This document shows, piece after piece, positions 8,295 through 64,000 of a DNA stretch of 64,000 nt. The position numbers and the translations under genes are program-made. A model generated the notes under the pieces. That model saw nothing but the letters and a program-made list of their open reading frames with translations, made no database searches and had not been told where the DNA came from. The stretch comes from Geobacteraceae bacterium (lineage in GTDB: Bacteria; Desulfobacterota; Desulfuromonadia; Geobacterales; Pseudopelobacteraceae), in the NCBI GenBank assembly GCA_013336525.1, contig JAAXTM010000004.1, positions 1-64,000 of the forward strand, read 5' to 3'. Position 1 is the stretch's first letter; each line of letters opens with the position of its first letter.

Positions 8295-9503
8295 TCAGTG
8301 CTGCGCCAGTCTTGCGACAACATGGTCAAGAATTGATCCGGCCAACTGGTCCTTTGACATCAACCCACACGGAGTACTGCTGCCATCCTTGAAAAACAGC
8401 AGTGCCCGGTTTGTATCAACATTGAAGCCGGCATCAGCCTGGCTGACGTCATTGGCAACGATCATATCCAGATTTTTTTCCTTCAATTTCTTTGTCGCAT
8501 TTTCAGCCAGAGCATCAGTCTCAGCGGCAAATCCGACCAGAAACGGGCGCGGCTTTAAGCCGTTATCCAGAGCACCCAGTCCAGCCAGAATATCAGGGTT
8601 TTTAATCATCTCTATCGTTGCTGAATCAGCACTCTTCTTGATTTTTGTAAGGTTTCTAGTCAGAGGCCGATAGTCTGCTACCGCAGCGGCCTTGATTACC
8701 ACATGGCATTCAGATACGTGTGCCATAACTGCATTCTGCATTTCAAGGGCGCTTGTTACCTCAATAATATCGACGCCACCCGGTTTGATCAGAGACGTAG
8801 GCCCGCTGATCAAAATCACCTTAGCGCCACGACAATGGGCAGTGCGTGCCAGAGCATATCCCATCTTTCCCGAGGAGTGGTTGCTTATATAACGAACCGG
8901 GTCTATCTCCTCACGTGTCGGCCCGGCAGTAATAAGAATCGTTCTGCCAGCCAGATCCTTTTCGGTCAGAGCAGCAAGAGCAGCCTCAAAGATAGTTTCC
9001 GGCGCAGCCAGTTTTCCTTCTCCTTGCCACCCACATGCCAGGCTGCCGCAGACCGGAGCCTCAAACAGATAACCCAGGCGGCGGAGTTTTTCCTCATTTT
9101 CCTGATAAATCGGGTTGGTGAACATATTGACGTTCATCGCAGGGGCGAATAAAACCGGGGCTTTGGTGGCCATGACCGTTGTGGTGAGCATGTCGTCTGC
9201 GATGCCGTTGGCTATTTTACCGATAATATTGGCCGTTGCTGGTGCAATGATGAATAGATCTGCCCGGTCAGCAAGTGAGATGTGCCCGATTTCCCGTTCA
9301 GCGATCAGGTTAAACAACTCCGTATGGACCGGGTTCGATGAAAGAGTTTGAAAGGTAAGCGGAGCGACGAATTCCTGGGCGGCACGGGTCATGATAACGT
9401 GGACATCTGCCCCCGATTTAGTCAAAAGCCTTAGCAGCTCAATTGCTTTGTAAGCGGCAATACCGCCACAAACACCCAGAATTATTTTTTTATTCCTTAG
9501 CAT
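8295..9503 (-). CDS. coaBC: Bifunctional phosphopantothenoylcysteine decarboxylase/synthetase CoaBC
   Basis: 402 aa coenzyme A biosynthesis enzyme. The N-terminal flavoprotein CoaC half (about 1-180) shows VCGGIAAYKAIELLR, the flavin and substrate motif PAMNVNMF, and SLACGWQGEGK. The C-terminal CoaB half (about 185-402) shows ITAGPTREEIDPVRYISNHSSGKMG. It joins cysteine to phosphopantothenate and then decarboxylates it. The ATG at 9503 gives the canonical MLRNKKIILGVCGG start. The frame is open 27 codons further, but those would overlap the upstream hydrolase gene. Confidence 0.95.
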   Translation of the reverse strand: MLRNKKIILGVCGGIAAYKAIELLRLLTKSGADVHVIMTRAAQEFVAPLTFQTLSSNPVHTELFNLIAEREIGHISLADRADLFIIAPATANIIGKIANGIADDMLTTTVMATKAPVLFAPAMNVNMFTNPIYQENEEKLRRLGYLFEAPVCGSLACGWQGEGKLAAPETIFEAALAALTEKDLAGRTILITAGPTREEIDPVRYISNHSSGKMGYALARTAHCRGAKVILISGPTSLIKPGGVDIIEVTSALEMQNAVMAHVSECHVVIKAAAVADYRPLTRNLTKIKKSADSATIEMIKNPDILAGLGALDNGLKPRPFLVGFAAETDALAENATKKLKEKNLDMIVANDVSQADAGFNVDTNRALLFFKDGSSTPCGLMSKDQLAGSILDHVVARLAQH

Positions 9504-9516
9504 ATGAAGTTCCGCC

Positions 9517-10140
9517 TCAGAAATATGGATTGCAGCGTTTTTCGTGTCCGATGGTTGTCTGCGGTCCATGCCCTGGATAGGCAATCACATCGTCCGGTAA
9601 GACAAAGAGCTTGGTACGTATTGACTCCAAAAGCTGCTCATGTGACCCACCAGGCAGGTCGGTTCGTCCGATTGAATCGGCAAAGAGTGTGTCACCGGTG
9701 ATGACTTTGCGCTCGTCCTCAAAATAGAGACTGCACCCCCCCAGAGTGTGGCCTGGAGTATGGAGAACTTTTAGACGACAAGTGCCAAAGAAAACATCCA
9801 TCCCGTCAACCAGATAGGCATCTGCTTCCGGCGAGTTTTCTCCCTGCAGGCCGTATTTACTGGCAACCTCGGCAGACCTGCTCAACATGGGTGCATCCGC
9901 CTGATGGATCAGAAGACGTGCGCCAAAGGCTGCCAAAGCTTGACGGTTCCCTCCAAGGTGGTCAAAATGACCGTGCGTGTTTATTATCGTGTGGATCTTC
10001 AGCCCGTACTGTTCCACAAAGCGGATAATCTGCTCTACATCGCCGCCAGGATCGACAACAATACCTTCATGGCTCTGCTCGCAAGCAACAATATAACAGT
10101 TTACAGACAGCGGACCTACGGCAATTGATTCAAATATCAT
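9517..10140 (-). CDS. MBL-fold metallo-hydrolase (YcbL/glyoxalase II-like)
   Basis: 207 aa metallo-beta-lactamase-fold hydrolase. The metal-binding motif THGHFDH is at about 58-64, followed by HTPGHTLGG and GDTLFADSIGRTDLPGG, then YPGHGP near the C-terminus, which is the pattern of glyoxalase II-like thioesterases. Substrate is unknown. The ATG at 10140 is preceded by AAGAGAG at 5-base spacing; a GTG two codons upstream would be too close to it. It ends 13 bp before coaBC and is probably cotranscribed with it. Confidence 0.88.
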   Translation of the reverse strand: MIFESIAVGPLSVNCYIVACEQSHEGIVVDPGGDVEQIIRFVEQYGLKIHTIINTHGHFDHLGGNRQALAAFGARLLIHQADAPMLSRSAEVASKYGLQGENSPEADAYLVDGMDVFFGTCRLKVLHTPGHTLGGCSLYFEDERKVITGDTLFADSIGRTDLPGGSHEQLLESIRTKLFVLPDDVIAYPGHGPQTTIGHEKRCNPYF

Positions 10141-10210
10141 AATCACTCTCTTGTTATATGCGATTCCGGGATAAACTCAGCCGGATAAATCTAAATCGAC
10201 TCACTGTTTA

Positions 10211-10238
10211 TTGACAACCACCGCTAACATGTTACACT
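10211..10238 (+). promoter_or_regulatory. Sigma-70 type promoter of ferredoxin-rubredoxin unit
   Basis: TTGACA at 10211-10216 and TACACT at 10233-10238 with 16-bp spacing, about 40 bp before the ferredoxin start. The -35 is perfect, the -10 matches four of six positions. Confidence 0.5.
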
Positions 10239-10280
10239 GTCACTCGCCTCACCCAGCAACGTTTGCCGGAGAATAAACAA

Positions 10281-10466
10281 ATGAAAATAGTCGTTGTAGA
10301 AACAGAAAACTGTATAAGCTGCGGCCTGTGCATTTCAACCTGTCCCTCTGTATTCAGATTTGATAACAGTGGCAAGTCCGAGTGTTTTGATCCTGCCGGA
10401 GCTACCGAAGTCGAGATCCAGAGTGCTATTGATGGCTGTCCAGTCCAGTGCATACGCTGGACATAA
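10281..10466 (+). CDS. Small [4Fe-4S] ferredoxin
   Basis: 61 aa. One complete cluster motif, CISCGLCISTCP, with the distant fourth ligand in CPVQC near the C-terminus, resembles single-cluster ferredoxins of the Fer4_13/Thermotoga type. It is a cytoplasmic electron carrier. The ATG at 10281 is chosen because GGAG lies 9 bases before it; an in-frame TTG at 10263 precedes that site. The rubredoxin gene follows after 24 bp, so the two redox carriers probably form one transcript. Confidence 0.9.
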   Translation: MKIVVVETENCISCGLCISTCPSVFRFDNSGKSECFDPAGATEVEIQSAIDGCPVQCIRWT

Positions 10467-12217: not shown

Positions 12218-13225
12218 ATGAATGGGCGGATTATAACCTTATTTGCAGCGGCTATTGTCATGCTGATGACAATCCCAGTGCAGGCCAAGGACTTCAGGTT
12301 CAACTTCAAAAACGCTCCAAGCGTTATCTTCAGCCACGATGCGCACCTTAGCAAAAACAAGGGGTGCAAGGCTTGCCACAGTGCAATTTTCGATCTTTCC
12401 AAGAAGCGTTCCTTTTCAATGGCTGAAATGGAGCGCGGTCTTTCCTGCGGCGCCTGCCACAACGGCAAAAAGGCTTTTAGCGTTGCTACGGAAAAAGACT
12501 GTAACAAGTGCCATCGCGGCACTCCCAGTGCTATTACCTATCGCATCCCAGCCGGTAATGCCATGTTCAGCCATGATTCTCATGTCAACGGCAGAGGATT
12601 TGGCTGCAAGAGCTGCCACAGTTCTGGACCAATGCGACGTGGTGTCACCATGGCTGACATGGAAAAAGGCAAGTCCTGCGGCGCCTGCCATAACGGTAAA
12701 AAAGCTTTTACTGCAGCAGCAAATTGTGGCTCCTGTCACAGCAGCTTGACCACCAAGACTCTGAAGTACAAGTCAAAACCTGTAAATGATGCTGTCTTCA
12801 GTCATGATTTTCATACACAGGCATATAAGTGTGGCGAATGTCATACCAAAAAATTTGACTACCGCCAAGGTTCACGCAAAACGACCATGGCAGCTATGGA
12901 AAAGGGAAAATCATGTGGCATATGCCATGACGGCAAGACCGCTTTTGCCGCTTCCGGTGACTGCAATAAATGCCACACCGGCTATAAGCCTGCCAACCTG
13001 ATCTTTAAGAACAGCGGCGGGACGGTTGTCGGTTACTTCAGCCATGACTTTCACACATCTGTCTACAAATGCAACGACTGTCACACCAAAAACTTCCCAT
13101 ACGGTGGCGGCAAGCGGATGACCATGGCTGACATGGGCCAGGGTAAGTCCTGTGGTGCCTGCCATGACGGCAATACGGCCTTCTCCGTAAAGTCAAATTG
13201 CGCGAAGTGTCACAAGAAGCCGTAA
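12218..13225 (+). CDS. Periplasmic dodecaheme c7-type cytochrome (four triheme modules)
   Basis: 335 aa. A signal peptide (about 1-23) precedes four tandem modules of about 75-80 residues. Each starts with a FSHDxH-type element (one carries DAH, one DSH, two DFH) that supplies axial histidines and contains three CxxCH haem sites, twelve in all. Repeats share the TMADMEKGKSCGACHNGKKAF block. This is the organisation of the polymeric c7 (nanowire triheme) cytochromes such as GSU1996 of Geobacter sulfurreducens, thought to act as an extended periplasmic electron wire. GGGGG lies before the ATG. The gene is monocistronic, between a sigma-70-like promoter and a hairpin. Confidence 0.92.
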   Translation: MNGRIITLFAAAIVMLMTIPVQAKDFRFNFKNAPSVIFSHDAHLSKNKGCKACHSAIFDLSKKRSFSMAEMERGLSCGACHNGKKAFSVATEKDCNKCHRGTPSAITYRIPAGNAMFSHDSHVNGRGFGCKSCHSSGPMRRGVTMADMEKGKSCGACHNGKKAFTAAANCGSCHSSLTTKTLKYKSKPVNDAVFSHDFHTQAYKCGECHTKKFDYRQGSRKTTMAAMEKGKSCGICHDGKTAFAASGDCNKCHTGYKPANLIFKNSGGTVVGYFSHDFHTSVYKCNDCHTKNFPYGGGKRMTMADMGQGKSCGACHDGNTAFSVKSNCAKCHKKP

Positions 13226-13247
13226 TACAGGTTTGCGTATAAACTAA

Positions 13248-13286
13248 CAGAAAAGGCGCTGTCTATAACGGGCAGCGCCTTTTCTG
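13248..13286 (+). terminator. Terminator-like hairpin after the dodecaheme cytochrome
   Basis: A perfect 14-bp stem (13248-13261 with 13273-13286) with an 11-base loop lies 23 bp after the stop codon. The 3' arm contains TTTT but no separate T-run follows. Confidence 0.65.
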
Positions 13287-13580
13287 TATATGTATGCTGT
13301 GGAGGCTTGTTGCCTGGTTAAAACAGTATTTTCAACACTGGCCATTTCAACATTAATATTTCACCCTTGAGAGCTTTACCCCCCCTAACAAGCTGCAGCA
13401 ATTAACTCCAGTACGAGATTCTTCCTTCTACCTGAAAACCTCATCCAGTAAGCGCTATTCACTTCAACCAAGTAGTATAATCACAGAATATATTTAACCG
13501 GATTCAATGCTGTGCAGTATGACCCTAATTAAAGGCGCGCTCAAGAACGACTATCCTCAAGCCTGTTGTATTTGTTTTAT

Positions 13581-14612: not shown

Positions 14613-15374
14613 ATGGTTATACAAGAAATAATTTGCCCTGCGTGCGGAAGTTTACAGCATTACACGCTTAAAGACAATCGCCTGCAATGTGCAAACTGTC
14701 GCAAAAAATATACTTTGTCGAGCCATAGAAGCAAGCTGTCACAGCAAATACTGGAACGCATTGCGCTAAGTTTTTGCCAGATGATACCCGCAACAACAGC
14801 AGCAACCGAAATGGGAGTAAATAGCAAAACAATCCAGAAATATTACGATCTTTTACGCAGAACCGTTTCCGAAGCAAATGAAAAACAAGCTATCAATAAG
14901 TTTGGCTCAGCGACGATAGATCCAGCTCTTTTTTATAATTACACCGCCGGTAAAGGACTTGGTCCGGGTATAAAGCCTCTTTTGTGCCTTGCTAAAAAAC
15001 TGGATGAGATCTCTCTTCTTTTTGTCCAGGCTGAACCATCCGGTGAGACAGCTACCGTTGCTGATACAGATGTCATTGGGTGGGTATACGCCAGGGAACA
15101 GAAATCATTTGACTCTCTGGATCTGGATCGAATCCATTTTTTATTAACTGTCGAAGATAGTACTGCTGGTGCCGCCATCCCATTTTGGGTATTTGCCAAA
15201 AAAGGGTTGGTCAAGTACCACGGCGGATTTAGAAAAAATTTTTACCTGTTTATGCGAGAAATGGAATTTCGATTTAACAATCATAACAAAGGCTCAACAC
15301 AGGCGTACTTAACCAATATATTGCAGGGTGATCTAAACAATACAGAAACAGGAGATGACAATGTACAGGTTTAA
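14613..15374 (+). CDS. IS1595-like transposase-derived zinc-ribbon/HTH protein
   Basis: 253 aa. Residues about 9-35 form a zinc ribbon (CPAC and CANC) and about 45-85 look like a helix-turn-helix (TTAATEMGVNSKTIQKYYDLLR). The C-terminal KNFYLFMREMEFRFNNHNKG strongly resembles the end of IS1595/ISXO2 transposases. The central part is not a clear DDE nuclease: the usual long catalytic region is shortened. No terminal inverted repeats are visible around it. It overlaps the start of the CbcL-like gene by 14 bp, so the two are cotranscribed. I infer a domesticated DNA-binding protein rather than an active transposase; a degraded transposase is the alternative. Confidence 0.65.
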   Translation: MVIQEIICPACGSLQHYTLKDNRLQCANCRKKYTLSSHRSKLSQQILERIALSFCQMIPATTAATEMGVNSKTIQKYYDLLRRTVSEANEKQAINKFGSATIDPALFYNYTAGKGLGPGIKPLLCLAKKLDEISLLFVQAEPSGETATVADTDVIGWVYAREQKSFDSLDLDRIHFLLTVEDSTAGAAIPFWVFAKKGLVKYHGGFRKNFYLFMREMEFRFNNHNKGSTQAYLTNILQGDLNNTETGDDNVQV

Positions 15375-17202
15375 TCTAGGATTCATACTTTTAGTGTTTG
15401 TTTTTATGCTTAGCCCGATTACAAGCTTCGCGGAAAAAGGGCTGGCTGCAGATCCAATGGATTGCCTCGGCTGCCATGGCGATAAAATCTCAGCAGCTAG
15501 TTTTGGTGCTTCACCTCATGGGAAAAATGGTTGCACAAGCTGCCATCTGGAGGGGACCAATCTTCTCCAGCATATGACCAGAAGCGTAAAGCTTGAAAAG
15601 GTTGACTGCTCTCGTTGCCACAAGAAGGAGTTCACCGAACATGCCGGCAGTGTTCATATGGAAAAAGGGGTTTCCTGTACCAGTTGTCATTCTTCCATTC
15701 ATACAATTACCAGCTGGAAAAAAGATAAGAAAATGGTGATTCAAAAATGTATTGAATGCCACCAAAAGGAAAAGGGTTTTATAACTTCAGTTCACGGAAA
15801 GGCTGCTCTTGCCGGTAACAAGGATGCTGCGGACTGCAGCGACTGCCACGGACTGCATCAGATTAAAAAAGTCCAGGGGCCGGGAACTAATGAAGGTCGC
15901 ATGTTTCATACTTCCGTATGCATAAAATGCCATGCGGATGAAAAGATGATGGAAAGGAACCACGTTAATCATACTGCCGTAGAAACATATCTTGAAAGCT
16001 ACCACGGCAAGGGCTACCGGCTTGGCTTCCCAGAGCGTGCAGCGGGATGCACAGATTGCCATACTTCACATAACATATTATCAAAAGAAGATGCTGCTTC
16101 ATCGGTCAACAGCAATAATCTCGTAAATACCTGCGCAGACTGCCACAAAAAGGCCACTGCTCTTTTTACCAAATACTATTCCCACGGCAGCCATTCGGAT
16201 CGTGAAAATTACCCGATTCTATATTATACGTTCATTGCAATGACCGGGCTTCTAGTGGGAACTTTTGCCGTTTTCTGGGTGCATACTCTGCTCTGGATGT
16301 TCCGTGGTTTTGTTGAAAACAGGGAAAAACAAACCGCACTTATGGAAGGTCGAGTTCACCATATACCTGACGGCAATAAACTCTATTACCGCTTCCAGAA
16401 ACGGCATATATTCCTTCACTTGTCTGTTATCATTAGCTTTTTAGGTTTGTCGCTGACTGGGCTGCCATTAAAATTCAGCGATCAGCTTTGGGCGAAGACC
16501 TTTATGTCCTTTTACGGCGGGGTCCATTATGCAGGCTTGATTCACCGCGGCTGTGCCATTCTCACCTTTTATTACTTCCTTGGCGCGCTATTTATGAGCA
16601 TCGACTTCCTGTTCCTGCGCAAGGATATTAAGGGTAATTTCCTGCAAAGAATGTTCGGGCCAGATTCTCTTATGCCTAATTTCAGAGATATATTCGATGT
16701 TATTGGTATGGTCAAATGGTTCTTATTCAAAGGTGAGAAGCCGACCTTCGAGCGTTGGACGTACTGGGAAAAATTCGATTTTATCGCGGTTTTCTGGGGT
16801 ATGTTTGCCATCGGCGGTTCCGGCTTGATGCTTTGGTTCCCCGAGTTCTTCGGCATGTTTTTGCCGGGCTGGGCACTGAATATTGCGACGATAATCCATT
16901 CTGACGAAGCACTTTTAGCAACCGGCTTTATTTTCACAGTCCACTTCTTCAACACACATGGCAGACCGGAAAAGTTCCCAATGGACTTTGTAATATTCAA
17001 CGGTCAGATGTCAAAAGAAGAGTTCATCGAGGAACGAGGTGACCAGTGGAAAAGGCTAGAAGAGCTTGGCGTCACTGAACAGTTTGCTGTGGAAAAACCG
17101 AGCGGAGTTTTATATGACTTTTTCTTCAAAGGATTCGGTTTTGCAGCGGTCTTTACAGGATTATCGTTAGTTTTCTTCATGCTGTATGCATTTCTGTCGT
17201 AA
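15361..17202 (+). CDS. cbcL: CbcL-like inner-membrane nine-haem cytochrome c / cytochrome b protein
   Basis: 613 aa. A signal peptide (about 1-24) is followed by a periplasmic domain with nine CxxCH motifs (about 32-260) and then a membrane domain with several helices and conserved histidines (about 280-610) resembling HydC/FdnI-type dihaem cytochrome b. That combination is the architecture of CbcL (GSU0274), a menaquinol oxidase passing electrons to periplasmic cytochromes during reduction of low-potential Fe(III) and electrodes. Orthology was not tested, so the symbol rests on architecture. AGGAG at 15350-15354 is 6 bases before the ATG at 15361, favouring it over the ATG two codons upstream. 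The gene overlaps the transposase-derived gene and ends at a terminator. Confidence 0.85.
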   Translation: MYRFNLGFILLVFVFMLSPITSFAEKGLAADPMDCLGCHGDKISAASFGASPHGKNGCTSCHLEGTNLLQHMTRSVKLEKVDCSRCHKKEFTEHAGSVHMEKGVSCTSCHSSIHTITSWKKDKKMVIQKCIECHQKEKGFITSVHGKAALAGNKDAADCSDCHGLHQIKKVQGPGTNEGRMFHTSVCIKCHADEKMMERNHVNHTAVETYLESYHGKGYRLGFPERAAGCTDCHTSHNILSKEDAASSVNSNNLVNTCADCHKKATALFTKYYSHGSHSDRENYPILYYTFIAMTGLLVGTFAVFWVHTLLWMFRGFVENREKQTALMEGRVHHIPDGNKLYYRFQKRHIFLHLSVIISFLGLSLTGLPLKFSDQLWAKTFMSFYGGVHYAGLIHRGCAILTFYYFLGALFMSIDFLFLRKDIKGNFLQRMFGPDSLMPNFRDIFDVIGMVKWFLFKGEKPTFERWTYWEKFDFIAVFWGMFAIGGSGLMLWFPEFFGMFLPGWALNIATIIHSDEALLATGFIFTVHFFNTHGRPEKFPMDFVIFNGQMSKEEFIEERGDQWKRLEELGVTEQFAVEKPSGVLYDFFFKGFGFAAVFTGLSLVFFMLYAFLS

Positions 17203-29147: not shown

Positions 29148-29963
29148 CTAGAAGAGTCTGAGAACTGACTGTGCTGCCTGAGAAGAGAGGCTCAGGGCTG
29201 TAGTGCCAAGAGACTGACGGGTCTGCAGCATCAGCATGTTGGCGCCTTCATTATTCATGTCGGCAAGAGTCAGGCCATCGGCACCCTGCTGGAGAGTATT
29301 GATGACGTTGTCAGTAAATTCCTGACGGGTGGTAATAACAGCCAGGTTACTTGCAAGAGTTGAAGACTTGGTGCGGAGTGTAGTCAAAGCACCGTCCATG
29401 TTGGCCAAAGCAGTACCAGCTGTTCCAGCTACAGCCCAGTTCGCTGCAGATGTAACGCCCAATGTGACAGAGTCAGATTTAAATCCAGCCACGGACAGCT
29501 TGGCATCGCCTGCCTTAGGAGCAAACTCGATTGCAAGAGTACCGTTGGTCAGCAGGTTGGTACCACGATATCCCGAATCACTAGCAAGAGTAGTAATCTG
29601 GCTGGTGATTTGCAAGAACTGGCTCTCGTAAGTAACCTGTGACAGAGTGTCACTGGTTGCGGAAGCCGAACTTGCAAGACCTTTAGCTGCCTGAATCAGG
29701 GATGTGATAGCTTTAATGCCGTTATCTGCGTTTTTGATGGTCTGTACTGCTTCACTCATACCGTCTTTGCGATCGTTCAAGTCGCTTGCGCGGTCCATGT
29801 GGGACGCAGCTGCAAAGAAGTTGGTCGGGTTGTCAAGTGCCGTATTAACCCGCTTCCCGCTGCTCAAACGGTCTTGTGTAGCTGTTAACTGCTTTGATGT
29901 CTGCTGGAGGGCAAGAAGGTTGTTTCTCATGCCTGCGGTCAGGGAGATGTCTGAAATTGCCAT
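29148..29963 (-). CDS. fliC: Flagellin
   Basis: 271 aa, short for a flagellin. The conserved coiled-coil N-terminus (about 1-100; SSGKRVNTALDNPTNFFAA) and C-terminus (about 215-271; QTRQSLGTTALSLSSQAAQSVLRLF) are complete, and the middle surface domain is small (about 140-200). The Ala/Ser/Thr-rich middle offers sites for O-glycosylation, which fits the modification genes upstream. AAGGAG lies 7 bases before the ATG. I could not identify its promoter in the 90 bp before it. The N-terminal helix resembles FlaF/FlbT-linked flagellins of Alphaproteobacteria. Confidence 0.93.
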   Translation of the reverse strand: MAISDISLTAGMRNNLLALQQTSKQLTATQDRLSSGKRVNTALDNPTNFFAAASHMDRASDLNDRKDGMSEAVQTIKNADNGIKAITSLIQAAKGLASSASATSDTLSQVTYESQFLQITSQITTLASDSGYRGTNLLTNGTLAIEFAPKAGDAKLSVAGFKSDSVTLGVTSAANWAVAGTAGTALANMDGALTTLRTKSSTLASNLAVITTRQEFTDNVINTLQQGADGLTLADMNNEGANMLMLQTRQSLGTTALSLSSQAAQSVLRLF

Positions 29964-54292: not shown

Positions 54293-55339
54293 CTAATTTG
54301 TTTTTGCTACATCATCATAGTCCCATGTAAAGCGATGCTGATCGACGAAACGACCTATTTCAACATTTGCCATCCGGGGATTTTCTTCAACGCGCCGAGC
54401 AAGATCTAGCAGCGCACTTCTGGCATCATCAGGTGGAAAAGCAGCACAATTGCTAACAAATGTTTTTATCCGCTCGATTTCTTCACCTTGCGCCCAGCTT
54501 TTTAAAGCAACCTCCAAGGCAAAATCAAAATATCCCAACAACAGCGCACAAGCGAAAAGGGCATGATTCTGTCGCTCTGTAAGTTGACCTGTGAAAAAAC
54601 CACCCGGAAAGGGATCTTTAAAAAAAACGGCATCTGCCCAAAGAACTCGCTCTCTCCCGAGGGTATCACGTTTGTCGAGTTGCCTGCACGACCGATAACT
54701 CATTTTAGTAAACCCATAAAAGGAAAAACCATATGAACGGAGCAAAAGTTCCACTTCAGAAAAGAGCGGTTGACCGACATACATCTGGAAAAACTCAACC
54801 TCTGCAACAACGGCGACTGTCCGCTCAGACAGTGTGCGTTGCGCACCTTGCAGGATGTCGTGTTCCAAACCCTGGGTGTCAAGCTTGAGCAACTCCCCCC
54901 AATAATCTTCCCCACTCAATTTTTCAAACAAGTAACTGTCAAGGCTTGTAACAGGGATAATCTCTGTACCGCATTCTGTGAATGTCGTGATATTGTATCG
55001 GCCAGCAGCTGGCCTGTTGACATTAAGAAACGAATTATTGCTTGGTGTAGTGAAAAGGTTCATCCGCGCACTTCCATCTATCTTGCCAACCGCGTAAGGA
55101 GCAATATGTAGTTGGGCATAAGGCAGATTCTCGGAAGAGTTTTCGTTGATATTAGAACATTCGTTTTTATCGGGCTCAAACGCAAGCGCAGCGGTTACCC
55201 CTGCCAGTGGCGCAACATCATCAAGTACTCCCCCCCTGGCACCGATATCAATGAAGCCGAGTGGTTTATTTTTTAAAGAAAGACCCGGAACTGTTTCATG
55301 AAACAACGGATCATCAAAAAATTTGTTGATATAAGGCAT
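54293..55339 (-). CDS. FkbM family methyltransferase
   Basis: 348 aa. SAM-binding region FIDIGARGGVLDDVAPLAG, AFEPDKNEC, and the FkbM signature LLKLDTQGLEHDILQGAQRTL. The C-terminal 120 residues are helical and without a match. TTGGAGAAATCACT before the ATG gives a good ribosome binding site; the same leader and first codons recur as a stub at 57451-57513. Likely sugar O-methylation. Confidence 0.83.
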   Translation of the reverse strand: MPYINKFFDDPLFHETVPGLSLKNKPLGFIDIGARGGVLDDVAPLAGVTAALAFEPDKNECSNINENSSENLPYAQLHIAPYAVGKIDGSARMNLFTTPSNNSFLNVNRPAAGRYNITTFTECGTEIIPVTSLDSYLFEKLSGEDYWGELLKLDTQGLEHDILQGAQRTLSERTVAVVAEVEFFQMYVGQPLFSEVELLLRSYGFSFYGFTKMSYRSCRQLDKRDTLGRERVLWADAVFFKDPFPGGFFTGQLTERQNHALFACALLLGYFDFALEVALKSWAQGEEIERIKTFVSNCAAFPPDDARSALLDLARRVEENPRMANVEIGRFVDQHRFTWDYDDVAKTN

Positions 55340-55382: not shown

Positions 55383-56180
55383 TCATTGACCTTTAACAAT
55401 GAATCCGCCAGGATTCGGAGACCAATCAAGCCGGCGAATCTTAACCTTGCCTTCAAAATATTCATCTACAGCCCTGCTTTCGCCCTCCCAAGGCCTAATC
55501 CCATACTCATCAAAAAGTACAACGCCACCAGGGACCACCAATGGCCAAAAATGTTCGAGCCCGGCTTTTGTTGGTTCATACATATCGCAGTCAAAATGAA
55601 GTAACGAGATGCGTAAACCAGGATGCTCTTCAACAAATTTTGGGACGGTTTCTTCGATGTTCCCTTTGACGAGTACAACACGCGGCTTATAGGGTATGAA
55701 TCTGTCCTTATCAAAGATTGAAATTGCATCTTCAAGTATTTCCTCAAATTCGCCGCTATCAAAGCCGCTGACGACTTTCCCTACGGTTTCATCACACTTG
55801 CCATCCTTATCAGAAACAGCGGTAAAACCGGCAAAATTGTCAAACCCAAAGACCTGCTTCTGACGGTCTCCCATGTTACGAATTTCCAGAAAATTTGCCC
55901 ACGACATGAGTGTTGTACCGCGATACACCCCAAGTTCGACAATATCGCCAGGTAAATCCACAATCATCCGGAAAAATTCATAATGTGCCAAAAACTTTTT
56001 CAGAAAAAGACGCCGGGAATAGATCTGAAAGTTTCTACAGATCTCATTATTTGAGATCCCGAATTTCTCGAAATGTGCTTCAAGGAGGCTTTCAATGTTA
56101 TCATCGGCGGCAAAGTTTGCACGACCATCAAACTTGCGTTCATCTTTCTCTGAAACGTCATCTTTCGCTGTTATTTCCAT
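55383..56180 (-). CDS. TylF/MycF-like macrocin O-methyltransferase family protein
   Basis: 265 aa. The SAM-binding DIVELGVYRGTTLMSWANFL and the metal/sugar-binding LLHFDCDMYEPTKAGLEHFWPLVVPGGVVLFDEYG match TylF-type enzymes, which methylate hydroxyls of deoxysugars in a metal-dependent way. It starts 3 bp after the radical SAM gene, so both are on one transcript. Confidence 0.87.
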   Translation of the reverse strand: MEITAKDDVSEKDERKFDGRANFAADDNIESLLEAHFEKFGISNNEICRNFQIYSRRLFLKKFLAHYEFFRMIVDLPGDIVELGVYRGTTLMSWANFLEIRNMGDRQKQVFGFDNFAGFTAVSDKDGKCDETVGKVVSGFDSGEFEEILEDAISIFDKDRFIPYKPRVVLVKGNIEETVPKFVEEHPGLRISLLHFDCDMYEPTKAGLEHFWPLVVPGGVVLFDEYGIRPWEGESRAVDEYFEGKVKIRRLDWSPNPGGFIVKGQ

Positions 56181-56183
56181 ATA

Positions 56184-57383
56184 TCATGCCTCCTTGGGAA
56201 TTATATCTATGTGATTTAAAGTATGAAAACGAGCGGCACTCAAAGCGCTGTCATCGGTATTGCATATAATTCCTGCGGCCTGAATTCTTTCCCCTGCTTC
56301 CCGTAAGCGACGTCGTTTTGTGTCCTCATCAACTTTTCCAGGCAACATTGAGGCAGGCGCACCAAACGTTTCCATAAAACCGCTTGCCAGCACATATTTG
56401 GGCCGATGACGTAAAACAAAGTTGAGGGTTTCTTCAAAGTCCACTTCACTCTCACCAGGAAATCCGATTATCAGGTGTGTTTCGAAACCCGCAAATTTAA
56501 TATCATTGAAAAGAGTGAAAATCCGGTCGATTTCTGCACGTGTGTAGGATCTCTTCATAAGCTTCAGGATATGCTCGGAGGCAGATTGAATAGGCAAACT
56601 TATATGTTTGATGACACCTTTAGCCAAAAAGCTCGCCATCTCGTCGAAAAATTTAATAAAATGGGCTGGATTCAGCCCATGAAGGGAAATTGTCACACCC
56701 GCATCTATCGCTTTGATCTTTTGCATGAGCAAGGGAAGGCTACTGTCAATGTCGTGACCGTAATCTCCTATAGAATCGCCCAACAGCATTATTTCCTTGT
56801 GTCCACTTTTTTCAATTGCGAGCTTGCAAGCTTCCACAAGTATGGATTCCGAAAAGCTTCGGTACGGCGGGAAAGCGAGAAGTTCCGAACAGTACGTACA
56901 TTCAAAGCGACAGCCTTCAGAAATGTGAAGTTTTATGAACTGATCGGCAAAAGAGGCCGGTTTGTCGGGGTGTTGCTTCCTATATTCAGCCACGTCGTCG
57001 CAGAGCTTGCTTTCGCTTACATTTCGTTCAATTTCACCTAGAGTTTTGTTGAAGGTTCTAAAAAACTCCTTAATTTTAGATTCGTCATCACGCCAGTTAA
57101 GAACACGCCCCTTGAAATGCTGATGAAGAAGTTCCTGGTCAATATCGGGAAGACAGCCGGCAACAATAACCTCAGCCTTATAATCTTTCAGATACCGTTC
57201 GATTTGAGCAAGACTGTTATCTCTGTAATCCCGCCGGAATGCGCATGTCCAAAGCAGTATAAGGTCGGATTCTGCCGGATCATCTACAATCGTATGGCCG
57301 TTAACCAAAAACAAATCTCGATACCTCTGAAGATCTGTCTGGCGCATCCAACAGCCATTTAAGCCTTTGATAAAAACGTTCAT
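56184..57383 (-). CDS. MiaB/RimO-like radical SAM methylthiotransferase homologue
   Basis: 399 aa from the ATG at 57383. The N-terminal UPF0004 domain has all three cluster cysteines (11 in LNGCWMRQTD, 47 in WTCAF, 77 in AGCLPD). The radical SAM motif is CRFECTYC (158, 162, 165), followed by GDSIGDYGHDI and the C-terminal part of the TIM barrel (LPIQSASEHILKLMKRSYT, IIGFPGESEVDFEETL). Those are the two [4Fe-4S] clusters of tRNA and ribosomal protein methylthiotransferases. The usual TRAM RNA-binding domain is not evident. Standing between a sugar O-methyltransferase and a TylF homologue, it may act on a sugar or protein of the island rather than tRNA. A longer frame to 57467 has no ribosome binding site. 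Confidence 0.85.
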   Translation of the reverse strand: MNVFIKGLNGCWMRQTDLQRYRDLFLVNGHTIVDDPAESDLILLWTCAFRRDYRDNSLAQIERYLKDYKAEVIVAGCLPDIDQELLHQHFKGRVLNWRDDESKIKEFFRTFNKTLGEIERNVSESKLCDDVAEYRKQHPDKPASFADQFIKLHISEGCRFECTYCSELLAFPPYRSFSESILVEACKLAIEKSGHKEIMLLGDSIGDYGHDIDSSLPLLMQKIKAIDAGVTISLHGLNPAHFIKFFDEMASFLAKGVIKHISLPIQSASEHILKLMKRSYTRAEIDRIFTLFNDIKFAGFETHLIIGFPGESEVDFEETLNFVLRHRPKYVLASGFMETFGAPASMLPGKVDEDTKRRRLREAGERIQAAGIICNTDDSALSAARFHTLNHIDIIPKEA

Positions 57384-57450: not shown

Positions 57451-57513
57451 TCAGGAGCGTTGCGCATTATTAATAAAATAACGGGTCTTCAAGAATTTGT
57501 TAATTATCGGCAT
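57451..57513 (-). pseudogene. 20-codon stub of an FkbM-type gene start
   Basis: MPIINKFLKTRYF with leader GGATTGGAGAAGGTACT closely copies the start and ribosome binding site of the FkbM gene at 54293-55339 (MPYINKFFDDPLF, ATTGGAGAAATCACT). It ends at a TGA after 20 codons. I read it as the remaining 5' end of a duplicated methyltransferase gene lost when the radical SAM gene came to lie here. A leader peptide is the alternative. Confidence 0.55.
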
Positions 57514-57544: not shown

Positions 57545-58774
57545 TTATTGTAAATACTTTTGTAACTTTTCGCGAAGTGTTTCAAAGTGTTTGGCTTGTC
57601 TAAATCCTTTAGCATTCAGTACACTTGTGTATAAATCCAGGTATTCAATCCGCGGATTCAGGCGAATAGCATCCCACATCAAACGGTGCCAAGATCCGTC
57701 TATCTTCAATGCTGATGCAGCCTCAGTATACATAGAATGAGCCGCAATAGCCTGCAGATCATCATTGCGAAGTGTTTTGGGAATCCGCTGGATCAATATC
57801 TCTAAAACAACCTCAATATTTGGATAAATTGCACCGACATTGTCATCACCGTATAGGTTCCAATACTTCAATGTCCAGTTAGAATCCAATGCACTGGCAC
57901 AATAACACGTATCACTTGAATGATTATTTTGGTCAGCACGTCCAGGAATGCTCATACCGTCTGGGTGAGGTCCATACCTGTTTACGTTATAAAAATATTT
58001 CCCATTATTATCTTCTTGAAATAACTGCATATAACGATCAAATGCTGTCTGAGACATTTCTGACAAAGATTGAGTGTTGATCAGGAGATCAAAATCAAAG
58101 CCATTTATTGAATTAACAAATGCAGTTGGTATTAAAGCAAAATCATATTTTGAGTTAAGGAGTTTTAGATCTTCACTAGAATGTACAAGGATTATTTTTG
58201 CGTGTGGAAAATTTGCAGCAAGGTAAGTATACGATGCAATTAACATTTCTGGTAAATCAAGTATAACATATTTTATATCAGGATTAGCAAACTTGAAAAT
58301 ACGGGCAAGGCCACCATATCCACCGCCTAGTTCAAGCACAGTGTTTGGGGTTGGAATCAATTTCTGTATCCGCTGGCAACAGGCAAGATGCCAAAGGAAT
58401 CCAGAGGATATTCTACGACCATTTTCATATACTATCGCCTTTTCGCTCGTATACGGTGACTCCTGGATCAAATGACTTAACGTGTTAAAATCAATACCAT
58501 TAAGTAATGCCCAGTTTTTATAATTCTCAACTGCCTTTTCGAGCATTGGATCGTTGTTAAGGAGTGGAAAAGTACACCAATCATTTTCTGTGCAAGCTTT
58601 TATAACCGCCTGGTAACTATCTAGAGATCTGATACTTGGCATCACGACCGAGTTGAGAGTTGCACTCCACATAACACTTGGACGAACTTCTTGCGGAACT
58701 TCTATTTGAGAGACAGTATTATAAAAAGAAAGGGCCTTTTCAACGATCTTGTCCACATAGTCCTCCTTAAACAC
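57545..58774 (-). CDS. Putative sugar O-methyltransferase
   Basis: 409 aa. The SAM-binding VLELGGGYGGLARIFK at about 142-157 followed by YVILDLPEMLIASYTYL and NTQSLSEMSQTAFDRYM is the pattern of the putative sugar O-methyltransferase family found in polysaccharide clusters. AAGGAGG lies 6 bases before the ATG. The C-terminal 100 residues are helical. AT-rich compared with neighbouring housekeeping genes. Confidence 0.83.
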   Translation of the reverse strand: MFKEDYVDKIVEKALSFYNTVSQIEVPQEVRPSVMWSATLNSVVMPSIRSLDSYQAVIKACTENDWCTFPLLNNDPMLEKAVENYKNWALLNGIDFNTLSHLIQESPYTSEKAIVYENGRRISSGFLWHLACCQRIQKLIPTPNTVLELGGGYGGLARIFKFANPDIKYVILDLPEMLIASYTYLAANFPHAKIILVHSSEDLKLLNSKYDFALIPTAFVNSINGFDFDLLINTQSLSEMSQTAFDRYMQLFQEDNNGKYFYNVNRYGPHPDGMSIPGRADQNNHSSDTCYCASALDSNWTLKYWNLYGDDNVGAIYPNIEVVLEILIQRIPKTLRNDDLQAIAAHSMYTEAASALKIDGSWHRLMWDAIRLNPRIEYLDLYTSVLNAKGFRQAKHFETLREKLQKYLQ

Positions 58775-58830: not shown

Positions 58831-59679
58831 TTATATATGGTGAGGTGAATATTGATTCACAAAATATATGTCACCGCTATAACTGTTTGAAGGGCTGGGA
58901 TCTTCAAAAACGAGTGAAAACCCATGGTCTTTAAGATACTGAATCAAATCATCTTTTATTTGCATGCTATGGTATTCAGTCACGATTCGTTTGATTTGAG
59001 GCAACCTTGTGCAGGACTGGAGAATTTCTAGTTCCAAACCCTCGACATCCATCTTGAGAATATCGACTTTTTCAAGGTTATATTTTGTAAACAGGGAATC
59101 AAGTGTTACGGCAGGAACCTCCAGAATCTTCACGAACTCATCCTTAATCCATGGCCGCTCGGGAATTCTTATGTTCTGCCCACCGATCGCCCCGATTTCC
59201 GGGATGATTTCCATCTGCAAAGTGCCGGCGTGCGCGGCGACAGCCACATTGTCATGCATTACATTACTGATATTGTTAAGCTTCAAGTTCTCACATAACA
59301 CAGCATATTCAGCAGGGTTTGGCTCTATCGCGATCACTTTGCAATCCGGACAAGTTTCCTTGAGTTTCAAGGTATAGAACCCTTGATTCGCACCGATATC
59401 GAGTACCACTGCAATATTTTTATCGCAAAATCCATCCACCATAAAATGAGCGTTTTCCTTGAAAATTTCGTGATAAACTTCAATAGTTGAATGCGATGAA
59501 CTGGCATTAAACCTCAGCGCGTAGCGTTCAAGATTCAGTATGAAGCTGCTTGTATCTTCAACAAAACGGTTGTACTCCAAAGTATAGTCACGCCAGGCAA
59601 TGATCTTATCGATCCAGGCCCGGCTCTCATTGTCGGCACAGATATCTTTCAGCCACGCAATGTCAAGCGCTCTTGCCAT
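58831..59679 (-). CDS. FkbM family methyltransferase
   Basis: 282 aa. VVLDIGANQGFYTLKLKETCP binds SAM, AIEPNPAEYAVL follows, and VDILKMDVEGLELEILQSC is the FkbM signature. It starts 4 bp after the radical SAM gene at 59684, indicating cotranscription. It is the third free-standing FkbM gene of the island. Confidence 0.85.
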   Translation of the reverse strand: MARALDIAWLKDICADNESRAWIDKIIAWRDYTLEYNRFVEDTSSFILNLERYALRFNASSSHSTIEVYHEIFKENAHFMVDGFCDKNIAVVLDIGANQGFYTLKLKETCPDCKVIAIEPNPAEYAVLCENLKLNNISNVMHDNVAVAAHAGTLQMEIIPEIGAIGGQNIRIPERPWIKDEFVKILEVPAVTLDSLFTKYNLEKVDILKMDVEGLELEILQSCTRLPQIKRIVTEYHSMQIKDDLIQYLKDHGFSLVFEDPSPSNSYSGDIYFVNQYSPHHI

Positions 59680-59683
59680 AAGT

Positions 59684-61165
59684 TCAGTCTCCTAGTAGTT
59701 TTCTCTTCAGCTTGATACTGTTCATCTCTTCCACATGCTCTCGGGCCTCACGCCCAAACTTACGTTCAATCATCGTAAGATAACGCGGGTTCTTGAAATA
59801 GATTTCAAAAGCATAGTCCCGAAACCAAAGCACTTCGGCGGATGAAAGGGTTTCGGTTGGAAGAGGAAGAAAATCATATCCTTGCTGGGCAAAGCCGCTC
59901 CACTTTTCAGGAAGAGGGGTTCCATTCTGCAGCGCTTCATCATAAAGATCGGAGCCTGGAGGCGCCATGGTGCAGAAAAAACTGGGAAAGGCGCAGTTTA
60001 GCTCCATGGCAAAGTTCAGATTTTCCTGCATGCTGTCCCAGGTATCACCCGGCAGGCCGAATATGAAATTCGCACAAAAGTCTATGCCCGTATCATGACA
60101 TCTCTTGACCACACTACTGATTACTTCTCTGGTATAAACACCTTTTGTAATACCTCTAAGAACATCGCCGTTCACTGACTCAATCCCCAGTTTGAACCAG
60201 TTGAAACCAGCTTTTTTCAATAGTTGCAGCTCGTCATCAGGCATGGAATCAATGCGATCCACGCGTGCGAAAGCACAGATGTTCAAGCCGTAATTTCTTT
60301 CGATCAGCCCTCTGGCTATGGGAAGATAGTGATCCGGATTGAAAACGAAAAGCTCATCGATGAGATTGATATGCCTGACACCATACTGCTGTACGAGAAT
60401 ATCTATCTGGCGTAGCACCCATTCCGGCGACCAGTAGCGTATTTTGTGTTCTCCGTATGTTGCATGGATAGCACAAAATTTGCATTGGTAAGGGCAGCCT
60501 AGGCTTGTGTACATTGTTGCACAGCGGTTTCTTTCAGAAAAATCGTTGAGGCACATCCAGCTGAATGCCCGGTATTTTCCGCTCCCCATTGGTAACAGAT
60601 CCCAAGCAACATCGCTTAATTCAGAGGTAAGATCTTCAATATTTTTTGGCCGGGGATTATTGAAAATCTTTCCTTCCGATTTCCACCACAATCCAGGAAT
60701 TTCGCTAAGTTCCTTTTCCTGCAACAAGCCCAACAGAGTATAAAAACCTTCACCCTGCGCAATCATATCGCATTCTTCTTCTTCAAGGGTCCTCTGAGGT
60801 AGTGCTGACGGATGCCAGCCTGTCAGGAGAATCCTTATTTCAGGTTGCAGTTTTTTCAGTTCGCTGCACAACTGTCCCACGGCTATCATTAACGGAGAGC
60901 ATGTATTGGCCTGCTGACCATACACTACAATTGTTGTAAGCTTGGCGTTGGTTTTTATAATGGCATCGGCTGTTTCCTGCAAATCCAGATTCAAAAAGTT
61001 TGCATCAAGAATATCGACACTAAAGCCATGCTGTCTCACAAAACCGGCGGTGACAGCAGCCCAGAATGGTGGTTCGATAGCAGAAAACACCTTGCTTAGT
61101 TCTTGATACACACTTTTTTTAGTTCCACCTACATTTACCAGAAGCACATCAAGTTTGTTCGACAT
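59684..61165 (-). CDS. Cobalamin-binding-type radical SAM protein (class B methyltransferase-like)
   Basis: 493 aa. Residues about 1-150 form a Rossmann-like B12-binding domain; the DxHxxG base-on motif is not obvious, LTGWHPSALP occupying the later loop. The radical SAM motif is CPYQCKFC at about 220-227, then INLIDELFVFNPDHYL, LGIESVNGDVLRGI and FIFGLPGDTWDSM as in BchE/P-methylase-type enzymes. These methylate unactivated carbon or phosphorus, or rearrange. In this setting C-methylation of a sugar is a fair guess. The ATG at 61165 is chosen, with GGAG 7 bases before; the ATG two codons upstream is too close to it. Confidence 0.85.
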   Translation of the reverse strand: MSNKLDVLLVNVGGTKKSVYQELSKVFSAIEPPFWAAVTAGFVRQHGFSVDILDANFLNLDLQETADAIIKTNAKLTTIVVYGQQANTCSPLMIAVGQLCSELKKLQPEIRILLTGWHPSALPQRTLEEEECDMIAQGEGFYTLLGLLQEKELSEIPGLWWKSEGKIFNNPRPKNIEDLTSELSDVAWDLLPMGSGKYRAFSWMCLNDFSERNRCATMYTSLGCPYQCKFCAIHATYGEHKIRYWSPEWVLRQIDILVQQYGVRHINLIDELFVFNPDHYLPIARGLIERNYGLNICAFARVDRIDSMPDDELQLLKKAGFNWFKLGIESVNGDVLRGITKGVYTREVISSVVKRCHDTGIDFCANFIFGLPGDTWDSMQENLNFAMELNCAFPSFFCTMAPPGSDLYDEALQNGTPLPEKWSGFAQQGYDFLPLPTETLSSAEVLWFRDYAFEIYFKNPRYLTMIERKFGREAREHVEEMNSIKLKRKLLGD

Positions 61166-61189
61166 ACACATTCTCCGAATATTAGCGTT

Positions 61190-61702
61190 TTACTCCAACC
61201 CCCCATCACGTTGTGATATTAGCGGGTTTTTTACCGGCCACCAGATATTCAACTCAGGGTCATTCCACAACTTGGTAAACTGGCTGGACCTGTCATAATA
61301 GGACGATTGTTTGTAATGAAACATGGCTTGGTCGCTTAAAACAAGGTGAGCTACCCCAAAACCTGGAGGGACCAGAATTTGGTAATGGTTATCCGCTGAA
61401 ATGATGAATGACTCCCACTGCCTGAATTGCGGCGAAGATTCACGGCAATCGACGATAACCAGATATATTCGTCCCAATATGCATGAGATGAGTTTATACG
61501 TATGGCGGTCTCCGTGAATTCCCCTCAGGACATGTTTCGATGATATGGAGACATCGTCTTGAGCGAAGTGGACTCCTCCAAGAGCTTCCTTATATAGCTC
61601 TTCGTTGTATAGCTCTATGTAGAATCCCCGAAAATCTTCAAACACAGTTGGCGGAGTTATTTTCAGGACAGCTTCAAGCTTAGTTTTTTCTACAACGAGC
61701 AT
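61190..61702 (-). CDS. rfbC: dTDP-4-dehydrorhamnose 3,5-epimerase family protein
   Basis: 170 aa cupin of the RfbC family. FEDFRGFYIELYNEE, HFAQDDVSISSKHVLRGIHGD (the catalytic His region) and the later PPGFGVAHLVLSDQAMFHYKQSSYY follow the family pattern. RfbC epimerises the 4-keto sugar on the way to dTDP-rhamnose and related deoxysugars. RmlA, B and D are not in the window, so the substrate may be another NDP-4-keto sugar. Only 3 bp separate it from the upstream gene. Confidence 0.85.
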   Translation of the reverse strand: MLVVEKTKLEAVLKITPPTVFEDFRGFYIELYNEELYKEALGGVHFAQDDVSISSKHVLRGIHGDRHTYKLISCILGRIYLVIVDCRESSPQFRQWESFIISADNHYQILVPPGFGVAHLVLSDQAMFHYKQSSYYDRSSQFTKLWNDPELNIWWPVKNPLISQRDGGLE

Positions 61703-61705
61703 ATT

Positions 61706-63577
61706 TTACCCCTTTGGTCGCCATGCAATAATTGATGCCCCGTCATGATAGGGGTCGCCGAAATTGGTCCGGTGTGCTTCCAGAATTTCTACCTTTCCCT
61801 CAGCGGCAAGTTGCTGGAGAGCCGGCCAGTATCCTGATAAATAACCACGTCTTCTATGATAGGTAGCGGCAAGATGGTCTAGCAGCTTTGCAGTGTCATA
61901 GAACTCTTCGATAGGTTCATGATGCAGCACAATCCTGGGTTTGGCAGCTAATATGTAAGACAAAAATGGCTGATAATCTCCCCCCAACTGTTCCATGGAT
62001 GAAATCGTTAACACGGCACTATTCGGTTTTAGGGTGAAGCCTGATTCGGGATTCAGCATGTCGAATTTGTTGCCCTCAATTTTTATACCCTGCTGTCTCA
62101 TGAGACCCAGGATGTTTACAGAGGCATCCGTCCAGTCAAGGCCGACCAGGGATTTTTCCGGGAAAATCTTTGACAGCATGTATAGGTATCTTCCTGTGCC
62201 GCAACCGAACTCGTATATATTGTCGATTGAACCCAGATATTTTTCAAACGCATTAGTCAAGACTATGGAGAATAATTCGTCCACAAAATCAGGGGTTTCA
62301 GGAGCTATGAAATCCCCCATATAACTTGTGTATTGAAAAGGTTTTATATATTTTGGTTTCAAGCTTTCCCAGGAAACACCCTCGGACAGGCTACGTTCAT
62401 AGTTTTCGTGCCACCCGTTTTGAAAAACAGTCTGATTTTCAGCGGTAGGTCGTTTTTTTAGATCATCCAGTCTTTGGACAATTTGGAGAATGTGTAAATC
62501 TCTTTCTTGCTGGCTGATGTGCCTGAATTTGAGTTTTCTGTCGTTAAGCATGCGTATACAGGAGGCGGGAATATCCTTGACACTGCAACCCATCTGGTTG
62601 CAGAAGGCATCTTCATCCAGCAATAAAGAGTCCTGAATAACGGTAGATGCAACCTTACTGCCCTTCTGCCAGAGTTCTCTGCACTCCCTTGCTATCCCTT
62701 CCGCATCAAATCCCCACCGTTTTCTCAGTTCAGCCTGTTTTAGATTGCCGAGTGCAAACTTGTCAGGGGCCCCCAGTCGGGACAGTTTGCATTTGTTATT
62801 GCTGCGCACTTTCCAATCCGCAACAGCCGACCACAAACCACCAGTCGGAATATGTTCCTCAACAATAATCATCGAGTCAAATCTTTGTGACAATGAGTCA
62901 AGCGTTGCCGTGTCCAATGGTTTAACAGTATGCATCTGATATACGCACGGATTGATCCCTTCCGTTGCCAGGTCGGCATGAGCCTTCAGTATCTCGTTGG
63001 CTATTTCACCGGTGCCGATTATGACTATCTTCTCTCCTTCGCGCAGAAGTCTGGCCTTGCCAAGAACCGCTGGTTCAAGTGCCTCATAGGATGGCTCTCC
63101 AAATCTGCCGACCGTAAAATAGGAAGGGCCACCCAATGCAAACAGTTGCGGAAGAAGCTGCTCAATCTCGCCGGGATCGCCTGGAGCAACAACGGTCATG
63201 TTGGGAAGCGCGGTCATCAGGGCGAGATCATCGGCGGCGTGGTGGGATACACCGCTGGTGGAGTAGAGGTACCCCCGCCCCGCCCCGACCAGGATGACAG
63301 GCAGATTCGGGTAGGCCACGCAGTAGCGGATCTGCTCGAAGGGACGTGCGGTGGCAAATGATGCAATAGAATATGCAACCGTTTTCCAACCCTCACTGGC
63401 CATGCCGGCAGCTGTATAAATCATCTGTGCTTCCGCCACACCGGCATTGATATAACGGGGCCCAAAACGCTTCTCAAATTCATCAAAAACCTGAAAACCG
63501 AGATCTCCGGTAATAAAAGCGATGTGCGGGTCTTCAACTGCCAAGCGCGTCAACGTTTCAGAAAATGCCTTTCTCAT
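61706..63577 (-). CDS. Transketolase C-terminal subunit fused to a methyltransferase
   Basis: 623 aa. Residues about 1-310 are the second half of a split transketolase: pyrimidine-binding domain (FITGDLGFQVFDEF, INAGVAEAQMIYTAAGMA, HHAADDLALMT) and C-terminal domain (IIGTGEIANEILKA, VKPLDTATLDSL). Residues about 330-623 are a class I methyltransferase (YEFGCGTGRYLYMLSKIFPEKSLVGLDW). Split transketolases in sugar clusters can make branched or unusual ketoses. The fusion suggests that carbon-unit transfer and methylation act on the same nucleotide sugar. The start overlaps the upstream subunit gene by 4 bp. Confidence 0.85.
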   Translation of the reverse strand: MRKAFSETLTRLAVEDPHIAFITGDLGFQVFDEFEKRFGPRYINAGVAEAQMIYTAAGMASEGWKTVAYSIASFATARPFEQIRYCVAYPNLPVILVGAGRGYLYSTSGVSHHAADDLALMTALPNMTVVAPGDPGEIEQLLPQLFALGGPSYFTVGRFGEPSYEALEPAVLGKARLLREGEKIVIIGTGEIANEILKAHADLATEGINPCVYQMHTVKPLDTATLDSLSQRFDSMIIVEEHIPTGGLWSAVADWKVRSNNKCKLSRLGAPDKFALGNLKQAELRKRWGFDAEGIARECRELWQKGSKVASTVIQDSLLLDEDAFCNQMGCSVKDIPASCIRMLNDRKLKFRHISQQERDLHILQIVQRLDDLKKRPTAENQTVFQNGWHENYERSLSEGVSWESLKPKYIKPFQYTSYMGDFIAPETPDFVDELFSIVLTNAFEKYLGSIDNIYEFGCGTGRYLYMLSKIFPEKSLVGLDWTDASVNILGLMRQQGIKIEGNKFDMLNPESGFTLKPNSAVLTISSMEQLGGDYQPFLSYILAAKPRIVLHHEPIEEFYDTAKLLDHLAATYHRRRGYLSGYWPALQQLAAEGKVEILEAHRTNFGDPYHDGASIIAWRPKG

Positions 63578-64000
63578 TGCTGGCCCCTCCTGTGTAATGG
63601 CAATGTTCCAAGCTCTTCAAGCGCATTTTTCAGGTCATCGTCTGAAGGGACACGGTAATGCCATAACACCTGGTCTTCCATGAAACTAATCCCCTTGCCG
63701 GCAGTAGTCTTGGCAATGATTGCAGAGGGCTTTCCTTTTTCAAATGGAACTGCTTGTAGAGCCTGCTGGATTGCAGGAATGCTGTTGCCGTCTATTGTTT
63801 GAACCGCCCAGCCAAAAGCAGTGAACTTCTCCTCAAGGGAAGTGTGTCCCATGAGCTCATCTGCTCGGCCAACAGACTGCACCCCGTTATTGTCAACAAT
63901 AACAAGAACATTGTCGAGACTGTGCGCTTTTGCAAAGGTGGCCGACTCCCAAGTGCTGCCCTCATTACACTCGCCATCACTGATCAGAGCAACCACCTTG
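63574..64000 (-). CDS. Transketolase N-terminal subunit (partial, runs off the window)
   Basis: About 141 C-terminal residues are visible; the 5' part lies beyond the window edge. KVVALISDGECNEGSTWESATFAKAHSLDNVLVIVDNN contains the thiamine diphosphate-binding GDGxxxEGxxxEA-type motif, here SDGECNEGSTWESA. The end, KTTAGKGISFMEDQVLWHYRVP, matches transketolase N-subunits. It pairs with the next gene, which supplies the pyrimidine-binding half. Confidence 0.88.
   Translation of the reverse strand, partial: KVVALISDGECNEGSTWESATFAKAHSLDNVLVIVDNNGVQSVGRADELMGHTSLEEKFTAFGWAVQTIDGNSIPAIQQALQAVPFEKGKPSAIIAKTTAGKGISFMEDQVLWHYRVPSDDDLKNALEELGTLPLHRRGQQ

Follow-up and report, generated by a model that had tools for sequence, protein, structure and literature searches.

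What does a protein built like a methylthiotransferase do among genes for sugar biosynthesis? The question is raised by the window, i.e., the stretch of 64,000 nucleotides from a Geobacteraceae bacterium that was analyzed as a whole, in which an intact open reading frame on the minus strand (positions 56184 to 57383) encodes a protein of 399 amino acids. An alternative in-frame ATG lies upstream at position 57467, but the homologues begin at 57383. The only known substrates of methylthiotransferases are tRNA and ribosomal protein S12 (PMC10702137, 2023).

Domains, cysteines, and predicted fold

Pfam searches of the 399-residue protein detected the domains Radical_SAM (PF04055, 3e-20) and UPF0004 (PF00919, 1.8e-12; 47.6 bits versus a cut-off of 27). 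Its best named match was the NCBIfam model TIGR00089 of the MiaB/RimO subfamily (6.3e-62), the cut-off of which it misses with 209.8 bits versus 251. The original prediction had stated that all six cluster cysteines are kept, that a TRAM domain is not evident, and that the gene is coupled to a TylF homologue. Translation confirmed the cysteines C11, C47, and C77 and the motif C158xxxC162xxC165, and these six positions are invariant in 33 of 33 aligned family proteins. The Pfam search found no TRAM in the protein, while the same search detects TRAM or TRAM_2 in the MiaB, RimO, and MtaB proteins of the genome, with TRAM_2 in RimO, and in an archaeal homologue; in this control, the MtaB match reached 18.9 bits, which is under the 21-bit cut-off. 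The coupling is borne out by a gap of 3 bp and a true PF05711 match of the adjacent gene product (Table 1). The genome (G000) contains three other UPF0004 genes, scoring over the cut-off as MiaB, RimO, and MtaB. Since typed tRNA and S12 enzymes are present besides it, the gene at 56184 to 57383 is a fourth, additional UPF0004 gene and not the tRNA or S12 enzyme of the cell. Comparison with the copy in locus L071 indicates purifying selection (dN 0.21, dS saturated).

Three motifs in the alignment of 33 proteins set the close members apart from the canonical rows, namely, GLNxC versus GC, WTC versus NTC or a near variant, and the absence after CxxxCxxC of the RG seen in the canonical rows (KG in one row). 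With Trp replacing Asn in NTC and RG missing, the N-terminal and post-cluster motifs depart from the canonical ones, so that the chemistry may differ from that of the canonical enzymes.

The AlphaFold2 model of the protein (pLDDT 92, pTM 0.89) has its closest solved folds in MtaB, MiaB, and RimO, at 23 to 26% identity and with Foldseek TM values (query length) of 0.70 to 0.73; the end of the predicted model is devoid of a TRAM-like strand set. After the methylthiotransferases, the next solved folds are the MCR glutamine methylase MgmA (9ccb, 14%) and the sugar diol dehydratase AprD4 (11%). A sequence search of the Protein Data Bank gave RimO (4jc0) as the best match (5e-28), and MiaB was also matched.

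Phylogenetic position and distribution

Nine relatives were found, eight of them at 42 to 71% identity and one divergent. A search of 98 near genomes gave next-best matches of only about 30% identity; one orthologue (48% identical) came from 395 genomes of the phylum, and a scan of a genome collection yielded seven close members. The close relatives are encoded by a Geobacteraceae MAG (about 70%), a Candidatus Methanoperedens MAG (61%), Deltaproteobacteria SM23_61 (48%; apparently the same record as the phylum orthologue), three Magnetococcales MAGs and one Rhodospirillales MAG (43 to 49%), and a further genome of the same order as the latter (42%). The divergent member, L131, came from a search of the class around a Magnetococcales MAG. 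The host genomes of the bacterial members carry two to three further UPF0004 genes each. No family member was found in the viral contigs searched, and plasmid and phage collections gave canonical-level matches only, with 30.7% as the best identity among the matches listed. A defense role was considered and dropped, as the PADLOC match was only marginal (0.0054).

The tree comprised 54 proteins; its eight family members group as one clade (100/100), and a 99/97 branch parts this clade and the other TRAM-less proteins from MiaB, RimO, MtaB, and the archaeal protein. The AU test, which takes the groups as fixed in advance and is exposed to the same long-branch bias, if any, as the model (with 1.44, the branch leading to the family is long), rejected forcing the family together with RimO (p 0.0039), MtaB (p 0.0049), or MiaB (p 0.0030); joining to the archaeal tRNA enzyme gave the weaker result of p 0.034, with that clade represented by one sequence. 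Overall, the protein falls in none of the four known clades according to the tree and the AU tests. The original prediction had called for such a tree and had named clustering with MtaB or MiaB as counterevidence; since the family lies outside MiaB, RimO, MtaB, and the archaeal enzymes, this clustering is absent.

A UPF0004 protein is absent from 30 of 31 genomes of the genus Methanoperedens, and the exception, G485, carries the family gene in a sugar cassette and no other. In the Methanoperedens locus (L072), genes for an fsa-type aldolase, a GmhA-like protein, GmhB, a kinase, and a nucleotidyltransferase lie alongside, together with a putative polysaccharide ABC exporter read by eye. Because the Methanoperedens protein groups within the bacterial members of the tree, gene transfer between the domains of life is likely.

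Several other TRAM-less methylthiotransferase-like proteins were observed. One occurs in three genomes (L035, 9171 to 10415; L037, 9264 to 10463; L009, match at 1501 to 2463; domains were scanned in L006, the L035 copy), and its neighbors appear by eye to be arsenite-type methyltransferases, an aquaporin, a B12-radical-SAM enzyme, and molybdenum-cofactor genes. L036 encodes two (12333 to 13484 and 15006 to 16217) and L040 one (9250 to 10362), in clusters that contain several further radical SAM proteins and by eye resemble clusters for peptide natural products. Another, in L039 (5075 to 6313; L010), adjoins a polysaccharide flippase and is placed outside the glycan-linked family. A protein of 431 residues in L049 (916 to 2211) is without TRAM, yet passes TIGR00089 with 285.8 bits.

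Gene neighborhood

The genes surrounding the methylthiotransferase-like gene are listed in Table 1; past the window edge follow genes for an HddA-like kinase, an HddC-like nucleotidyltransferase, an SDR protein, and an aminotransferase.

Table 1. Genes of the window considered in this study
Feature	Position	Strand	Evidence and remarks
Flagellin gene	29148..29963		
FkbM-family methyltransferase	54293..55339	-	Pfam; 69% in L071; downstream end of the part conserved in L071
TylF-like O-methyltransferase	55383..56180	-	PF05711, 1e-18, 68 bits (cut-off 23); directly downstream of the methylthiotransferase-like gene
TRAM-less methylthiotransferase-like radical SAM protein, 399 aa	56184..57383	-	Pfam, tree, alignment, predicted model, fold search
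Putative sugar O-methyltransferase, NanM-type	57545..58774	-	TIGR04371, 92 bits (cut-off 44)
FkbM-family methyltransferase	58831..59679	-	Pfam; L071 orthologue 73%
B12-binding radical SAM enzyme	59684..61171	-	Pfam; orthologues in L071 (88%) and L073 (44%)
RmlC-like dTDP-sugar 3,5-epimerase family protein	61190..61702	-	Pfam; orthologues in L071 and L075
Transketolase C-half fused to methyltransferase-like region	61706..63577	-	Pfam; full-length L071 orthologue
Transketolase N-half	63574..64000	-	Truncated at the window edge; remainder in L041

Most of the cassette genes are kept in the same order in L071, where no orthologue of the NanM-type gene was found between the FkbM and the methylthiotransferase-like gene. 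TylF orthologues of 65 to 87% identity follow the methylthiotransferase-like gene on the same strand in L071 to L074. With tblastn, which also served to map the neighbors in the GC-rich loci L074 to L076, a TylF-like gene was located near all nine close members, window included; in five of them, it is the next gene downstream on the same strand. A split transketolase is present near eight of the nine (tblastn), being partial in L073, where the contig ends; for the ninth member, L074, a contig ends on one side at a distance of 1.3 kb. Eight of the nine close members have B12-radical-SAM enzymes, of at least three types, nearby, and an HddA-like kinase is found near five. B12-radical-SAM types other than that of the window occur in L072, L074, L076, L077, L131, and L139. 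The divergent L131 locus contains genes for a NeuB-type protein, a ThDP enzyme, a methyltransferase, and a B12-radical-SAM enzyme. L071, L072, and L077 supplied the cassette queries, and all six of the other, independent loci gave matches, whereas none of the 25 queries had a match around any of 12 canonical methylthiotransferases, of which three belong to this genome and nine to genomes of other members. By simple count, 6/6 versus 0/12 would arise by chance about once in 18,500 cases, which is only a guide because shared ancestry and transfer link the loci.

TylF orthologues with more than 60% identity occur in two of the 395 phylum genomes, the same two that carry the radical SAM gene. In G005, a genome of the same genus, a TylF relative with 51% identity stands beside a transketolase pair and a B12-radical-SAM enzyme, and the stretch read around it contains no methylthiotransferase-like gene. 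As the cassette thus occurs without it, the methylthiotransferase-like gene seems to add a tailoring step that is optional.

With respect to the sugar itself, the HddA-like kinase scored 138.6 bits versus a curated cut-off of 600 and the HddC-like nucleotidyltransferase 179.6 versus 300; because both values are far under the cut-offs, heptose is named only tentatively as the pathway sugar. In L072, GmhB exceeds the cut-off in two models and GmhA stays under it in each model. Neither GmhA nor GmhB was seen near the window gene.

Apart from the cassette, the region from 29148 to 54249 of the window begins with the flagellin gene and continues with very large multidomain proteins of up to 2221 residues, which have glycosyltransferase, methyltransferase, and repeat-like regions. 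A locus of the same genus (L132, 9313 to 19807) combines a TylF-like gene, a split transketolase, a B12-radical-SAM gene, and four further radical-SAM-looking genes, without a methylthiotransferase-like gene.

Proposed function and comparison with known systems

We propose, with a probability of roughly one half, that the protein is a methylthiotransferase-type radical SAM enzyme that helps to build an unusual surface sugar, probably derived from a heptose. A role in a sugar pathway is well supported. Decoration of a sugar is probable, since TRAM, an RNA-binding domain, has been lost and the gene lies among genes for an unusual surface sugar; in view of this neighborhood, the acceptor would be a nucleotide sugar or a nascent glycan rather than a protein. 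A reaction of the MiaB/RimO type is possible, since the ligands of both clusters and the fold are retained. MiaB and RimO use two SAM molecules, a methylated sulfide on the auxiliary cluster, and a 5'-deoxyadenosyl radical. By analogy, a first SAM would pass its methyl group to a sulfide of the auxiliary iron-sulfur cluster held by Cys11, Cys47, and Cys77, and a second would be cleaved at the Cys158/162/165 cluster to give the 5'-deoxyadenosyl radical, which would abstract a hydrogen from a sugar C-H; the sugar carbon radical would then accept the CH3S group (+46 Da). We infer methylthio transfer as such, together with the acceptor carbon, the product, and the order of this step relative to those of the transketolase, TylF-like, and B12-radical-SAM enzymes. 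The most far-reaching reading, for which the odds fall a little short of even, is that the family represents a new branch of methylthiotransferases that builds methylthio-sugars through radical sulfuration of a C-H bond in a nucleotide sugar or glycan, and that gene transfer has spread it between bacteria and an anaerobic methane-oxidizing archaeon.

The altered motifs around both clusters, and the position of AprD4 as the next solved fold class after the methylthiotransferases and MgmA, would also suit radical chemistry on a sugar without sulfur transfer (epimerization, dehydration, or oxidation), with the auxiliary cluster serving for structure or electron transfer only. We regard this as unlikely, given that the three auxiliary-cluster cysteines are all invariant and that AprD4 shares only 11% identity, compared with 23 to 26% for MtaB, MiaB, and RimO. 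The C-terminal Cys374, present in seven of nine aligned members, could donate a hydrogen in such a reaction; the idea of a conserved hydrogen donor of a radical epimerase was marked down because two members, L077 and L131, have Tyr at this position. Insertion of sulfur without the methyl group, i.e., as a thiol, followed by methylation of oxygen or sulfur by the adjacent TylF-like enzyme, would fit the TylF-like gene near every close member and its position next downstream on the same strand in five, but TylF relatives are O-methyltransferases and MiaB/RimO-type enzymes methylate sulfur themselves, which leaves this sequence of events improbable.

The original prediction had inferred a new substrate, such as a sugar or a flagellin residue that receives sulfur or a methylthio group. 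Of these, a sugar substrate distinct from tRNA and S12 is well supported by the separate clade, the absence of TRAM, and the sugar cassette. A protein target such as a flagellin side chain, modified as RimO modifies S12, would accord with the flagellin gene and the many glycosyltransferases within the window; nevertheless, it appears very unlikely, as no flagellin gene was recognized in the gene maps of the relatives' loci inspected by eye, one host is an archaeon, and the AU test rejects placing the family with RimO (p 0.0039). Just as doubtful is a divergent tRNA methylthiotransferase placed by chance in a glycan island: its fold and cysteines match those of MiaB and MtaB, but TRAM is absent, the clade is separate, canonical tRNA enzymes are encoded by the same genome, and the sugar neighborhood is conserved over two domains of life.

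If methylthio transfer to a surface sugar is correct, the TRAM-less, sugar-linked clade would extend radical sulfur chemistry to carbohydrates, a directly searchable glycan modification of +46 Da would be predicted, and such genes should not be annotated as MiaB-like tRNA enzymes. The literature retrieved on methylthiotransferase-type enzymes in glycan or natural-product clusters, covered mostly through titles and abstracts, dealt with tRNA, S12, or unrelated topics only. With the tRNA methylthiotransferases MiaB, MtaB, and archaeal e-MtaB, the protein has in common the UPF0004 and radical SAM domains, both cysteine triads, and the overall fold, whereas it is without TRAM, forms a separate clade, scores under the TIGR00089 cut-off, and is encoded among sugar genes. 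RimO shares the domains and cysteines and is the best Protein Data Bank sequence match, but carries the TRAM_2 domain that the protein does not have, and their grouping is rejected by the AU test. The other TRAM-less clades (L006/L008, L007/L034/L036, L010, and L049) likewise lie outside the canonical clades and have no TRAM in those scanned (all but L008), whereas they form separate long branches and have other neighbors (read for all but L049); their occurrence suggests that methylthiotransferases have taken on new substrates on more than one occasion.

GDP-heptose biosynthesis (PMC10680097) resembles the cassette in the HddA-like kinase and HddC-like nucleotidyltransferase of several loci and in the GmhA-like and GmhB proteins of the Methanoperedens locus; however, the cassette kinase and transferase are under the curated cut-offs, and the split transketolase and radical SAM enzymes are outside the four steps described there. 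Methylthioxylose of mycobacterial lipoarabinomannan is another known methylthio-sugar (PMC10675199). In the lincomycin thiooctose pathway, as in the scheme proposed here, a GDP-activated long-chain sugar acquires sulfur and, in lincomycin, an S-methyl group, but there the sulfur comes from ergothioneine via an S-glycosyltransferase and the cluster encodes a separate S-methyltransferase rather than a radical SAM enzyme for this purpose (PMC12945683).
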